DNA from: Bacteroidota bacterium
Lineage (GTDB): Bacteria; Bacteroidota; Bacteroidia; Chitinophagales; Chitinophagaceae
Assembly: GCA_013289175.1 (NCBI GenBank)
Contig: JABDAN010000019.1
Span: 1 to 43,166, forward strand
DNA: 43,166 nt
Direction: 5' to 3'
The notes under the pieces: model-generated
The model's database searches: none
Seen by the model: only the letters and a program-made list of their open reading frames with translations
Told to the model about the DNA's origin: nothing
Shown: piece by piece, positions 19,861 through 25,851 of the stretch
Layout of the letters: each line of letters starts with the position of its first letter
Numbering within the stretch: position 1 is the stretch's first letter
Program-made: the position numbers and the translations under genes

Positions 19861-21663
19861 TCAAATTTTTTCGAATTGCATCTGATGCAGCCGGAAGTAA
19901 AATCCTTCCTTTTCCATCAGCTCATCATGGGTGCCGATTTCCCTGATTTCACCCTTGTCCAGGACCATGATCTTGCTGGCCCGACGGATGGTGCTCAGGC
20001 GGTGGGCGATGACGATCGAGGTCCGCCCGGAGATCAGCTTACCGATGGCTTCCTGGATAAGTTTTTCCGACTCCGTATCCACCGAGGAAGTGGCTTCGTC
20101 CAAAATCAAAATGGAAGGGTCAAAGAGCAGGGCCCGGATAAAAGAAAGCAACTGACGCTGACCCAGGGACAATGTATTTCCGCGCTCCATCACATCGTAG
20201 TCGTAACCACCCGGGAGCCGGAGAATAAATTCATGCATGCCGATGAGTTTGGCAGCCTGTTCGACCCGTTCAAAAGAGATGTCCTTGTTGCGCAGGGTAA
20301 TATTGTCCAGGATAGAGCCGGAAAAAAGATATACATCCTGTAATACGACCCCGATCGAAGAACGAAGGGCATCGAGTTTATAGGATTCAACCAGCCGGTC
20401 ATCGATCCATATCCTGCCTTTCTGGACCGGATAAAGCCGGTTGAGCAGACTGATGATAGATGTTTTACCGCTGCCCGTGTGTCCCACAATGGCCAGGGTT
20501 TCTCCGGGTTCAATGAGAAAGGAAATATTCCTGAGCACCCATCGTTCGTCGTTGTAGGCGAAAAAAACCTGGTCGAAAGCCACTTTGCCTTTCAGCTTCC
20601 CGGGAGCGAGGGTTCCTTCATCGGGCATCTGATCGGGGTTATCAAGCACCCTGAAAATCCGTTCGCTGGCCACCATGCCCATTTGCAGGGTATTGAATTT
20701 ATCGGCAATCAGCCGCAGGGGCCTGAAAAGCAAATTGAGCCACAGGGTGAAGCTTACGATGAGGGCCGGCACGCCCGAAATCTGTTTTCCGGGAATGTGT
20801 AAAACATGACTGGCTGCATACCAGACAAAAAGTCCCGTAGAAAAAGCCAGCACGATTTCGACGATGGGGAAAAATACGGAATAGGCGAAGATGGCTTTGA
20901 TGTTGGCATTGCGGTGTTCGCGATTGATTTTTCTAAAACTTTTATATTCCCGGTCTTCGGCTGCGAAAGCCTGGACTACTTGCATGCCGGTAATGTGTTC
21001 CTGTACAAACGCATTGAGGGCAGCCACGGCATTGCGTACCCGGATAAAGGACCGGTTGACGGCTTCTTTAAAGAAATAAGTAGCCAGAATCAAGATCGGA
21101 AACGGAATGAGGCAGATCAAGGTCAGCTGCCAGTTGATCCAAAACATCACACCCAAAACCGAAATAATCGAAAGCAGGTCAGAAACAATGGGGATCAGGC
21201 CCTCTGAAAAGATATCGTTGATGGCTTCAATATCGTTGATGGTCCGGGTTGTAAGGGTGCCAATGGGTGTCTTATCGAACTGCGCCAGATTGAGCGAAAG
21301 CACTTTTCTGTAAACAGTAATCCGCAGGTCTTTTACCACGGTTTGTCCAAGCCAGGCGGTGATATAGGAAAAATAAAAACGCAAGGCTGTTTCAATCAGC
21401 AAAAGTCCGATTTGAAGCATCGTAACATAAAAGATCATCTGAACCATGCGGTCCTGTACCCCGAGGTTTCCGTTCAATCCACCCTGGATATAAGAATTAA
21501 CGGTATACTGGATCAGCAAAGGTCGAATGGGTGTGATGATCGCCAGCAGAAAGGATAAACTGATGGATTGATTGAAAGATTTTTTGTAGGGTCTTGTATA
21601 TTGTAAAACCCTGCGCAGCTGAGTGAAATCGAAAATTTTTTTCCTTAGGGACTGTTCAGACAT
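19861..21663 (-). CDS. ABC exporter, fused membrane and ATPase domains (MsbA/MdlB type)
   Basis: A 600-residue half-transporter that would work as a dimer in the inner membrane. Residues 30-340 form a six-helix type I exporter domain. The ATPase domain has Walker A GHTGSGKT (394-401), Q-loop Gln442, signature LSLGQ (498-502), Walker B ILILDE (518-523) and H-loop His554, all intact. There is no N-terminal C39 peptidase domain, so it is not a classic bacteriocin processor. The substrate could be a lipid, peptide or drug; the sequence does not decide. It starts 24 bases after the stop of the 739-residue protein gene, which makes co-transcription likely. The ATP synthase operon downstream has its own promoter. 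Confidence 0.93.
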   Translation of the reverse strand: MSEQSLRKKIFDFTQLRRVLQYTRPYKKSFNQSISLSFLLAIITPIRPLLIQYTVNSYIQGGLNGNLGVQDRMVQMIFYVTMLQIGLLLIETALRFYFSYITAWLGQTVVKDLRITVYRKVLSLNLAQFDKTPIGTLTTRTINDIEAINDIFSEGLIPIVSDLLSIISVLGVMFWINWQLTLICLIPFPILILATYFFKEAVNRSFIRVRNAVAALNAFVQEHITGMQVVQAFAAEDREYKSFRKINREHRNANIKAIFAYSVFFPIVEIVLAFSTGLFVWYAASHVLHIPGKQISGVPALIVSFTLWLNLLFRPLRLIADKFNTLQMGMVASERIFRVLDNPDQMPDEGTLAPGKLKGKVAFDQVFFAYNDERWVLRNISFLIEPGETLAIVGHTGSGKTSIISLLNRLYPVQKGRIWIDDRLVESYKLDALRSSIGVVLQDVYLFSGSILDNITLRNKDISFERVEQAAKLIGMHEFILRLPGGYDYDVMERGNTLSLGQRQLLSFIRALLFDPSILILDEATSSVDTESEKLIQEAIGKLISGRTSIVIAHRLSTIRRASKIMVLDKGEIREIGTHDELMEKEGFYFRLHQMQFEKI

Positions 21664-21687: not shown

Positions 21688-23907
21688 TTAATCTTCTTCG
21701 CCCATGGCATTGCGGTAGGCCTTGATAAAAATTACACCCAGGTTTTTATAAGGTGGAATATAATCTTCAAAGCGATCCCGGGCCACCGGATCGCGGCTGA
21801 ATCGTTCGGTCAGTGACTTCCACATCGGCAACCAGTCTACATTGGTCCCTGCCAGCAGATCGTTGTTGATTGCCTGCAGAATGGGTTCATTGACGGATTT
21901 GGTTCCCACCTGCTTGGAAGAAATAATGTGGGCGTCGGGACTAATGCTCAACACTTCACTTAAATTATTGTAACCGCCGCAGGAACCCAGGATGACAATT
22001 TTTGCCGAAGGCTGGATTTGTTTGAGGCTATAACGAACATGATAGCTGTGACCACGGTGGATATATATGGTGGGCTGTAGTTTATTGTCGTATAGATAAT
22101 CGGCCAGGTGATGCTGGGCTTTGTCGTCGGGATCGTCTTCTCCGTATAAAGGCCGGTTGGCAAAAATCCATACCGGTTTTCCCTTGAGGGACTGGATCAT
22201 CACCCATTCATTGGTCGGATTCACGGTAATTTTCCATTCCGGTCTTTTCAGAAACAAACGCAGAAAATCCTGATAGGAATTCTGCCCGTCCTTGTCTTCG
22301 TCGCCATAGAAAAAAACCTGTTGTATGACCCGGCCGCTGTCATCTTTCAGGGAATCATAACTCACCGTATAAACCGGCGGTATGCCCAGCTTGGCCGAAA
22401 GGTCAATCTGGTTGGTGGTATCGGCCGATTCAAAAAGGGCTTCCATCAAATGATAAATTACCGTACCCCTTTTGTCGCTGTTGAGCATATTTCTTTTGTA
22501 ATTCCATTTGACCTCATTCAATACAAAGGCAGCCAGGGAAGGATTTTTGTCAAAAATGCTGCTATAGGAATCGGCCACGTCCACAGCGTCTTCTTCGTTG
22601 GCTCTTTCCAGTCCGATGATAAAGGCTTTCATGATCGTAGCGGCGTTGTCCTTATCCATGGTACCCAGAAAATTATCGAGCTTGTTGTAAGCGGCAGCCA
22701 TCTTGATGAACTTCCTGAAATAATCGCCGTGCATTTCCATGATCAGGCTGTCACCCCGCGGCACCGTCATGCGCTGGAAAATACGATCGTATACCCCCAG
22801 ATAACTGGACGTATAAATTTCATCCTCACTGAGTACAACCAGGTAATAAAGTTCAGCCGGACTCAAGGGATCGAGGATTTTAAATCGGATGGAAGCCGGC
22901 TTATCATGCAGGGCGTTGATCTCGCGCACAAATACATCTTTTCCTTTGCTGGTAAGCATGCTGGTAAGCGCTTCCATTTCCAGGGCCGTATCAAACAAGG
23001 GCGGCAGCATGCGCGCAGCATAGTCTAGCCGTGTCTGCACCAGCAATTTGTAATAAAGCAGGTTGTCCTCCTTCACTTTGTTGATGTCCTCCAGGGTGAT
23101 CCGGTGATTGATCAGGTTATCTAGAAAAGGCAAATAAAGCTGGCCGCTTTTGCTGGAGGCAATCCTACCCACCATACTGACCAGAGAATCTGAACTGATG
23201 CGGATCCTGGTCGCCAGCACCGTATTGCCGGAAGCATAGTCATACAATTTGCGGATATTTTTTCTGCCCCCGGTGATGATCAGACTGTCTGCAAATGGCA
23301 GGTCGGGATTGGCCGTGAGAATCGTGAAAATATCTTCGGGATGCAATTCCGCATACTTACGAATCAGCAGGATGCGTGAATTTTTTACACCAGGGTTCTC
23401 TACCGGTAATAAGAAACATTCCACCAGGATCTTACCCACCCCGTAAGAGTTGACAGCGATCACCGGTTCAATGCTACGATTGTGCTGGTCCAGCTCCATG
23501 GCTTTGACAAAAGCATCAAAAAGTGCCGGGGCCATCGAAGGCGGGTAGTCTTTTTTCCTGAAATTATTGTTGTAGCCCCGGATCATGGTCTCCAAAGACC
23601 GCAGGTTCTTGATTTTCATCTGACCGGAGAGTGTGGAATCGGTTTCAATCTGTTCCTGCAACAAATCCACCTGTCTGATCATGACATCTGCGATCTGCAG
23701 GTTGATGTTGTCGTCTTTGGAAACCTGGATGATGTCGTCGGGTTTACCGTCCAGAGCCAGGAGCCGTTTTTGCTCTTTATCGATGTTATCGTGCCATAGT
23801 TTTCGTTCCTGCTGGATCTTAAAAGGGGGATTGGCTGTTTGCGCTATCAGGGGGCCGGCAAACAAAAACAAAAAAGGTATAAGGAGAAAACGGATAAATT
23901 TGTTCAT
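21688..23907 (-). CDS. Large secreted protein of unknown function with possible clan CD-like His/Cys motif
   Basis: The 739-residue product has a signal peptide (residues 1-22, ending PLIAQ). Residues 25-500 look helical and match no family I recognise. The C-terminal third changes to alternating beta/alpha: VFFYGDEDKDG (about 530), EWVMIQSLKGKPVWIFANRP (566-585), PTIYIHRGHSYH (612-623) and AKIVILGSCGGYNN (634-647). A hydrophobic strand ending in His-x-Gly/Gly-His (H617, H620) followed by a strand ending in Ser-Cys-Gly (C643) resembles the catalytic layout of clan CD peptidases (caspase, gingipain, CHAT). This is pattern reading only, and the His-Cys spacing of 23-26 residues is short for the clan. 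A conserved-looking SKQVGTKSVNEP follows. It is the first gene before the ABC exporter. Confidence 0.75.
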   Translation of the reverse strand: MNKFIRFLLIPFLFLFAGPLIAQTANPPFKIQQERKLWHDNIDKEQKRLLALDGKPDDIIQVSKDDNINLQIADVMIRQVDLLQEQIETDSTLSGQMKIKNLRSLETMIRGYNNNFRKKDYPPSMAPALFDAFVKAMELDQHNRSIEPVIAVNSYGVGKILVECFLLPVENPGVKNSRILLIRKYAELHPEDIFTILTANPDLPFADSLIITGGRKNIRKLYDYASGNTVLATRIRISSDSLVSMVGRIASSKSGQLYLPFLDNLINHRITLEDINKVKEDNLLYYKLLVQTRLDYAARMLPPLFDTALEMEALTSMLTSKGKDVFVREINALHDKPASIRFKILDPLSPAELYYLVVLSEDEIYTSSYLGVYDRIFQRMTVPRGDSLIMEMHGDYFRKFIKMAAAYNKLDNFLGTMDKDNAATIMKAFIIGLERANEEDAVDVADSYSSIFDKNPSLAAFVLNEVKWNYKRNMLNSDKRGTVIYHLMEALFESADTTNQIDLSAKLGIPPVYTVSYDSLKDDSGRVIQQVFFYGDEDKDGQNSYQDFLRLFLKRPEWKITVNPTNEWVMIQSLKGKPVWIFANRPLYGEDDPDDKAQHHLADYLYDNKLQPTIYIHRGHSYHVRYSLKQIQPSAKIVILGSCGGYNNLSEVLSISPDAHIISSKQVGTKSVNEPILQAINNDLLAGTNVDWLPMWKSLTERFSRDPVARDRFEDYIPPYKNLGVIFIKAYRNAMGEED

Positions 23908-24120: not shown

Positions 24121-24801
24121 ATGGATGCCAAAGGCAAGAAAATTCTGATCGCGGATGACGAGCCGGACATCCTGGAAGTGCTTCAATACAACCTCGTTCG
24201 GGAAGGATACGAAGTAACGACCGCCAAGGACGGGGATGATGCCCTGGTTAAAGCCAAATCCACCCATCCTGACCTCATTATCCTGGACATCATGATGCCC
24301 AAAAAAAGTGGTGTGGAAGTCTGTGAAATCCTCCGAACCCAGCCGATTTTCCATGATACCCTGATCCTGATGCTGACCGCCCTCAACGACGAGGGATTTC
24401 ATATCAAGGGCCTGGAAAGCGGAGCGGATGATTATGTAAACAAGCCCGTAAGTCCCCGGGTGATTGTAAGCCGGGTTGGCGCCCTGCTGAGAAGATCCAA
24501 CAAGGAATCGGCGGAAAAAGTGCTGAGCCGGGGCAACCTCCATATTGATCCAACCAAATTTGAAGTATTGGTTGACGGCCAGCCGGTAACACTGGCAAAA
24601 AAGGAATTTGAACTATTATATCTGCTGGCTTCCCGTCCTGGAAGAGTATTTTTGCGGAATGAAATCCTGAACCAGGTATGGGGGAACGATGTCATTGTGG
24701 GTGACCGCACGATCGACGTGCATATCCGCAAAATCAGGCAAAAACTCGGGCTTGATTGCATCACCACCGTCAAAGGGGTGGGATATAAGTTTGTGAACTA
24801 A
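24121..24801 (+). CDS. OmpR/PhoB-type response regulator
   Basis: A 226-residue two-domain regulator. The receiver domain has acidic residues Asp12 and Asp13 (ADDEPD), phosphoacceptor Asp56 (LIILDIMMP), Thr86 and Lys108 (NKPV), all intact. The C-terminal winged helix (about residues 130-226) ends in HIRKIRQKLG and TVKGVGYKF, the OmpR/PhoB pattern. Its TAA is immediately followed by the kinase ATG, so the pair is one unit. PhoB is a possible identity because phosphate transport genes lie 2-3 kb downstream, but this pattern is shared by many OmpR-family regulators. The upstream region is shared with the divergent 739-residue protein gene. Confidence 0.93.
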   Translation: MDAKGKKILIADDEPDILEVLQYNLVREGYEVTTAKDGDDALVKAKSTHPDLIILDIMMPKKSGVEVCEILRTQPIFHDTLILMLTALNDEGFHIKGLESGADDYVNKPVSPRVIVSRVGALLRRSNKESAEKVLSRGNLHIDPTKFEVLVDGQPVTLAKKEFELLYLLASRPGRVFLRNEILNQVWGNDVIVGDRTIDVHIRKIRQKLGLDCITTVKGVGYKFVN

Positions 24802-25851
24802 ATGCTCAATACCCAGAATCTTACTCCCAAACAATTATCCGCTTTCACGGCCCTGGTGATCGCTTTGTCGATCGCGCTGGGCATTTTTTTTATAACCTCC
24901 AGCTGGAAATATGGCATCGGCTCCCTGGTTCTTGTTTTTTCAGGGTCCTATTTTCTCATCCAGTTTACGCTGGAAAAATTCATCTACCGGAAAATAAAAC
25001 TGATCTACAAATTCATCCATCAGACCAAGACCACCAGAAAAGAAGAGGTTTATTTCAAATACATTCTGCCTAAAAAAAGCATTGATGAAGTACGCGAGGA
25101 CGTGGAACGCTGGGGCAACCGTCAGACCGAAGAAATAGAATTGCTTCGCAAAAACGAAGAATTCCGCAAGGAGTTTCTTCAAAATCTTTCCCACGAATTC
25201 AAGACGCCGATTTTTGCGATCCAGGGTTATGTAGATACCCTGCTCAACGGTGCGATGGATGATACAAAAGTGAGCAAGCGGTTCCTGGAAAACACGGAAC
25301 GCAATGTGGAAAGGCTGGTCAATCTCGTCAACGACCTGGATGAAATTTCTAAACTGGAGCGCGGAGAACAATTGTTGCTCAAACAGAATTTTGTCATTCA
25401 GGAACTGATCCGGGAGGTATTCGAATCCCTTTCCATCAATATGCAGGATAAGAATATGCGAACGACGATTAAAAAAGGCTGTGAATATCCTGCCGTCGTT
25501 TTTGCCGATAAGGAGAAAATCAGGATGGTACTTTTGAACCTGGTTGAAAATGCCTCCAAATATGGAAAGCAGAATGGCACGATTACGGCCAGCGTTTATT
25601 CGACCGACGGCCGCCATGTACTGGTGGAGATTACCGATGATGGCATCGGCATCGAAGAAGAGCACCTGCAAAGAATTTTCGAAAGATTTTATCGCACCGA
25701 TTCCGCCAGAAGCAGGGACAAGGGTGGTACCGGACTGGGACTGGCCATTTGTAAACACATCATCGAAGCCCATGAGCAGGCCATCCATGTTCGCAGTACG
25801 CCGGATGTGGGGACTTCAATCGGCTTCACCCTGGAAGCCCGCAAAGACTAG
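24802..25851 (+). CDS. Sensor histidine kinase (PhoR-like)
   Basis: A 349-residue membrane kinase and partner of the preceding regulator. Two membrane helices (about residues 13-32 and 37-57) are close together with almost no periplasmic loop, so it probably senses through the membrane or a partner. A linker helix (60-120) leads to the HisKA domain with phosphoacceptor His131 in NLSHEFKTP. The ATPase domain has the N box (NLVENASKYG), G1 (ITDDGIGIEEE), F box (FERFYRTD) and G2 (GGTGLGLAICKHII). No PAS or HAMP domain is evident. The TCS type matches PhoR-like kinases; the signal cannot be read from the sequence. Confidence 0.92.
   Translation: MLNTQNLTPKQLSAFTALVIALSIALGIFFITSSWKYGIGSLVLVFSGSYFLIQFTLEKFIYRKIKLIYKFIHQTKTTRKEEVYFKYILPKKSIDEVREDVERWGNRQTEEIELLRKNEEFRKEFLQNLSHEFKTPIFAIQGYVDTLLNGAMDDTKVSKRFLENTERNVERLVNLVNDLDEISKLERGEQLLLKQNFVIQELIREVFESLSINMQDKNMRTTIKKGCEYPAVVFADKEKIRMVLLNLVENASKYGKQNGTITASVYSTDGRHVLVEITDDGIGIEEEHLQRIFERFYRTDSARSRDKGGTGLGLAICKHIIEAHEQAIHVRSTPDVGTSIGFTLEARKD

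Follow-up and report, generated by a model that had tools for sequence, protein, structure and literature searches.

A conserved Bacteroidota protein family with a putative exported Cys-His hydrolase domain and separase-type His-Cys spacing

The gene considered here lies on the reverse strand at positions 21688-23907 of a 43,166-nucleotide stretch of DNA (the window; contig JABDAN010000019.1 of assembly GCA_013289175.1) from a Bacteroidota bacterium of the Chitinophagaceae. Its translated open reading frame is 739 amino acids long and comprises a signal-peptide-like N-terminus, a helical solenoid and a C-terminal alpha/beta domain with conserved Cys and His residues. The protein is probably an exported Cys-His hydrolase, presumably located in the periplasm, with an architecture like that of the CHAT proteins and separases; peptidase activity is the most likely. 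Membership in clan CD of the cysteine peptidases is likely but unproven. A sequence-only reading of the window had proposed a clan CD-like domain in the segment encoded by 21688-22340 (residues 523-739 and the stop codon), and the stretches on which it relied (VFFYGDEDKDG, PVWIFANRP, H617-R-G-H620-S-Y-H623 and S642-C643-G-G) are all found in the translation where it had placed them.

Conservation of the putative active site was analysed in an alignment of 85 homologues, consisting of 81 distinct Bacteroidota proteins and 4 Azospirillum plasmid proteins, with identical sequences merged beforehand. The Bacteroidota rows do not include gene fragments from four genomes (G016, G018, G029 and G032) or the copy at a contig end in G048; among the rows retained, L003 is cut at its N-terminus and L041 contains unknown residues. 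Thirteen positions are invariant in 85/85 rows: H617, R618, G619, S621, G641, S642, C643, G644, N673, W692, W696, Y716, and P719. Eight of these 13 fall within two motif stretches, residues 617-623 and 641-646, that together cover 13 positions (hypergeometric p 7.6e-13, with rows that are not independent). The first stretch is the candidate catalytic histidine motif H617-R-G-H620-S-Y-H623 (22039..22059, reverse strand, as for all parts of this gene) and the second begins with the candidate nucleophile motif G641-S-C643-G-G (21973..21987). H617 and C643 are 26 residues apart in 85/85 sequences, and the best other Cys column is occupied in no more than 38 rows. The expectation that C643 and one His would prove invariant was thus borne out. 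The His-rich turn described earlier stands only in part: H617 is invariant and H620 is kept in 83/85, being Leu or Tyr in two long paralogues (L070 and L071) that retain H617 and C643, but H623 is conserved in 61/85 only, with Tyr in 21, and is thereby ruled out as the catalytic His. After the first strand of the domain, D538-K-D540-G541 (22285..22296) has each of its D, D and G kept in 84/85 homologues, and the invariant W692, W696, Y716 and P719 (21751..21834) lie at the C-terminal side of the domain. Thirteen further loci (L080-L092), outside the alignment, were checked for the motif only; 12 possess HR...GSC at the 26-residue spacing, and L092, by hand count, keeps the spacing but has GGC, an exception to the invariance of S642. 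The branch leading to the Azospirillum clade measures 4 changes per column, and the motif residues have therefore persisted while the rest of the protein diverged very strongly. The earlier suggestion of a degenerate branch is unsupported, because the site is strictly conserved.

The spacing between the two residues had been described as 23-26 residues and shorter than usual. This is correct with respect to the dyads of caspase, clostripain, MARTX and CHAT proteins, which are 42-49 residues apart, but separases have exactly 26. The dyad is H2003/C2029 in human separase (spacing 26; PMC9729208) and H1014/C1040 in Caenorhabditis elegans separase (spacing 26; PMC4626109), as against H615/C658 in Csx29 (spacing 43; PMC10028731), H585/C627 in TPR-CHAT (spacing 42; PMC9729208) and His144/Cys186 in a caspase, caspase-7 by context (PMC4357240); PmC11 has His133/Cys179 and MARTX-CPD His91/Cys140. 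The spacing of 26 therefore favours H617 as the base and resembles that of separase.

The fold is a predicted one. In the AlphaFold2 model the secondary structure switches from helical to beta/alpha near residue 525, where the sequence-only reading had placed the switch at the last 200 residues, and the domain has predicted strands at residues 527-534, 558-562, 568-573, 579-584, 614-618, 637-640, and 660-664. H617 and C643 mark the ends of two hydrophobic strands (predicted strands 614-618 and 637-640), as had been proposed, and the invariant His and Cys follow consecutive strands in both the full-length model and a model of the isolated domain. For the full-length model, the CHAT protein DdvA occupies the first two Foldseek ranks in the PDB (prob 0.95 and 0.94), and Csx29/TPR-CHAT and separase occur among the 50 structure-aligner rows listed; GTPases stand beside these structural matches. 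Other Foldseek matches of this model include O-GlcNAc transferase (0.87), karyopherins, and clostridial toxin B and TcsL (prob 0.06-0.20); the rows of helical proteins are taken as resemblance to the predicted solenoid.

Several results weigh against placing the domain in clan CD. The E-value for CHAT in Foldseek is 2e-3 at best, which is marginal, and the loop carrying the Cys has a predicted local distance difference test score (pLDDT) below 50 in both models. The isolated-domain model (242 amino acids, pLDDT 61.5, predicted template modelling score 0.60, parts of the last third below 50), for which the fold prediction of residues 500-739 drew on 7 of the 85 homologue rows, has small-GTPase-type domains, some of them in fusions, in 50/50 VIA rows listed. 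Its Foldseek matches are headed by CD98hc, followed by GTPases (prob up to 1.00, E at least 1.2e-3) and PurE, and the GTPase match probability of the isolated domain exceeds the CHAT probability of the full-length model. No clan CD row is found among the best 50 of its 1362 Foldseek matches or among the VIA rows listed, an absence that is not counted as proof. Profile comparison points in the same direction. Against same-phylum domains, hhalign scores remain at noise (C25 0.6%, CHAT 2.0%, C14 1.4%, and C11 1.1%, the C11 set being 10 rows only, some partial, and the strand of two rows of the family alignments, L156 and L178, being undecided), and a reversed control reached 7.4%. Among the known families, compared in both directions, hhalign gave 92-94% for C14-CHAT, 9-23% for C14-C25, 5-17% for C11-CHAT, 5-13% for C11-C14, 0.9-1.7% for C25-CHAT, and 0.2-0.3% for C25-C11. 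Known clan CD families, too, often fail to recognise one another by this method; as the new family has no partner above 2%, it nevertheless stands further off than any known family does from its closest counterpart. In each of the best local alignments to CHAT, C14 and C11, C643 falls at the end on the Cys of the family motif, which is suggestive only, because a conserved Cys draws a Cys.

The domain could also be a Rossmann-like domain of another superfamily, whose invariant Cys and His serve acyl transfer, amidase activity or ester hydrolysis instead of proteolysis. This explanation is considered unlikely, though it deserves to be kept in mind. CHAT takes the first two Foldseek ranks for the full-length model, and a GxxxxGK[ST] P-loop was searched for in the 85 homologues and found in 0/85, from which it follows that the protein is not a GTPase. 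The order of strands in the sheet is (2)-3-1-4-5-6 in the GTPase core and 2-1-3-4-5 in caspases, identical if the edge strand of the GTPase core is disregarded. On these strand orders, even a GTPase-like match would predict the strands leading to H617 and C643 as neighbours, and the predicted fold is compatible with a caspase-like sheet. The claim of a clan CD-like domain is partly supported. None of the three outcomes named beforehand as refuting it turned up, in view of the invariant dyad, the placing of His and Cys after consecutive strands and the CHAT matches of the full-length model, but neither the profiles nor the isolated domain with its GTPase and PurE matches speak for it.

Sequence searches assign the family to no known group. 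The whole protein has no meaningful match in Pfam, NCBIfam or the PDB sequences, and no PDB match of the domain profile has an E-value under 1.3. In 44 diverse homologues the domain draws scattered and weak Pfam matches. DUF7923 (PF25540) matches 5/44 full-length homologues with a best E-value of 1.1e-4 and is missing from the domain-only list, indicating that the match sits outside the C-terminal domain. CHAT (PF12770) gave no match in the 44 homologues at E-values up to 1 (domain) or 0.1 (full length), C25, C14 and C11 gave none in either the domain-only or the full-length list, and C50 separase is absent from both; nor does separase appear among the PDB matches that profile A2 finds with E-values of up to 10. 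The motifs differ as well. CHAT proteins have HxATH, with two His four residues apart, and Leu-Ser-Ala-Cys (H154, H158, L201, S202 and C204 are invariant in 25 CHAT rows), where the homologues have HRGH and GSC, and the C14 motifs Ser-Gly-His-Gly and Asp-Ala-Cys do not occur in the family. At the sequence level the family falls outside CHAT, C14, C25, C11 and C50, and in the copies of Pfam and NCBIfam searched it has no match; the most fitting classification is a new family with a mode of action like that of CHAT and separase. No paper in the literature searched was recognised as dealing with it. Elsewhere, the window genome (80% complete) encodes two CHAT proteins and one C25 protein (G000:C89:3601-4443, G000:C45:26018-26776 and G000:C33:6552-7673), and no C11 or C14 proteins were found in it.

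The CHAT proteins (DdvA, 8rot, and TPR-CHAT/Csx29) resemble the family in possessing a helical repeat N-terminus and a C-terminal alpha/beta domain, in a hydrophobic strand that ends in small-small-Cys, and in providing the best structural rows for the full-length model. The family differs from them in its lack of a CHAT profile match, its HRGHS and GSCGG motifs, its spacing of 26 versus 43 and 42, and its signal-peptide-like N-terminus. Separase (MEROPS C50) shares the spacing of 26, whereas the family shows no sequence match to it, lacks the His-Gly pair, and is bacterial with a signal-peptide-like N-terminus. Gingipain (C25) also occurs in Bacteroidota and has an acidic residue after strand 1, proposed for P1 binding; the family is distinguished by its helical N-terminus and by an hhalign score of 0.6%, and the C25 protein of the window genome is a separate one. 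In clostripain (C11) and metacaspase (C14), as here, consecutive strands end in His and then Cys, but their hhalign scores against the family are at noise.

In the mechanism proposed, C643 would be the attacking nucleophile, and the general base would be H617, which precedes it by 26 residues; H620 may replace or assist H617 in this role. The loops and the oxyanion site would be shaped by R618-G619 and G641/G644, and a basic P1 residue may be held by D538/D540. According to PMC4626109, the acidic P1-binding residue is found just after strand 1, as Asp163 of gingipain R and Glu917 of the separase model. Because D538/D540 sit where clan CD enzymes hold P1, the specificity is best guessed as cleavage after Arg or Lys. 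The solenoid may bind or sense a partner and gate the site, by analogy with Csx29, whose TPR part gates the site according to PMC10028731 and PMC9729208.

Instead of a Cys-His dyad, H617, H620 and C643, together with D538/D540, could make up a metal-binding site with a structural or catalytic role. An HxxH motif with an invariant Cys could hold zinc, and the DxDG weakly resembles an EF-hand loop, which makes a calcium site at 22285-22296 possible. EF-hand models, however, match through this DxDG in only 2 to 3 of the 44 homologues, with a best E-value of 0.0066, and H620 is Leu or Tyr in 2/85 sequences while H617 and C643 are kept; a metal site is accordingly improbable. Slightly less probable still is that the domain is an inactive member of clan CD with a binding or sensing function. 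The non-canonical His motif and the CHAT1 pseudo-caspase domain of Csx29 (PMC10028731) offer some precedent for this reading, which agrees poorly with His, Cys and loops kept in 85/85 across the tree, including the long Azospirillum branch.

Outside the catalytic domain (residues ~520-739, 21691..22350, AlphaFold2), the protein has a hydrophobic, signal-peptide-like N-terminus recognised by eye at residues 1-22 (23842..23907), with no Cys for a lipobox; it is from this N-terminus only that export is inferred. Residues ~69-495 (22423..23703) form the helical solenoid in the AlphaFold2 secondary structure, with TPR and HEAT-type proteins among the Foldseek matches.

An ABC exporter (ABC_membrane and ABC_tran; 19861..21663) lies 24 bases downstream on the same strand and is a probable operon partner of the gene. 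A response regulator (Response_reg and Trans_reg_C; 24121..24801, forward strand) is divergent from it and is adjoined by a histidine kinase (HisKA and HATPase_c; 24802..25851, forward strand). Among 54 loci of the same family, whose flanks are short so that missing neighbours may be cut off, a divergent response regulator is adjacent in 46, a same-strand downstream exporter is present in 37 at -121 to 203 bases, and both occur in 36. By hand count, the regulator is found in 28/28 loci of the same genus and 18/26 elsewhere in the family, and the exporter in 26/28 and 11/26, respectively. In G067, which belongs to a different family within the order, two tandem copies are likewise preceded by a regulator and a kinase (by eye). 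A role in envelope homeostasis is suggested by the presence of the divergent two-component pair and the ABC exporter next to the gene. In two families (f74 and f81) the gene lies instead beside an SpoU-type RNA methylase in 4/5 loci (L210-L213, not L209; by eye), and MutS is near the gene in two of these (L210 and L213; by eye). The window also contains F-ATPase, RodA-type and PBP-type genes around the gene.

At the level of genus, family and order, 68/98 genomes contain a relative, the window's own genome counted, as do 57/59 of the genomes searched within its family. The class-level draw contains relatives in 15/295 genomes and the phylum-level draw relatives with strong E-values in 8/198, these draws overlapping. 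Ten weak matches from the phylum-level draw, at E-values of 0.0018 to 0.55 over 34-71 positions, were dismissed as chance; six weak-match places, two of them L093 and L094, were scanned and show short motif-like stretches in some frames. One viral-contig scan and the phage records yielded no relative. In the other families of the order, 11 genomes have a match, of which seven carry a tandem pair of ~700 and 931-1155 amino acids (L061, L062, L064, L065, L068, L070, and L071) and three more hold a long copy elsewhere. Nine of ten long copies form one group in the tree (93/96, drawn open), which leaves the tenth copy unplaced. Four Azospirillum proteins (L218-L221), found by tblastn, share 25-30% identity over the matched parts; their branches are long and their placement is unsure, and they may represent either an old transfer from a family centred in Bacteroidota or a wider family. 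They are located on megaplasmids and annotated as hypothetical proteins, and three of the four lie beside ethanolamine ammonia-lyase, LysE and GGDEF genes.

The family may tentatively be viewed as an unnamed group of exported bacterial peptidases in two phyla, combining separase-type spacing with a solenoid and a catalytic domain and performing separase-like proteolysis outside the cytoplasm, beside an envelope-type two-component system. If this is true, a gene present in 57/59 genomes of its family, with relatives on Azospirillum plasmids, would gain its first function, that of a separase/CHAT-like protease which is exported and has a new active-site motif. Clan CD would gain a family to which nothing in the copies of Pfam and NCBIfam searched corresponds, and the finding would bear on the origin of the separase spacing.
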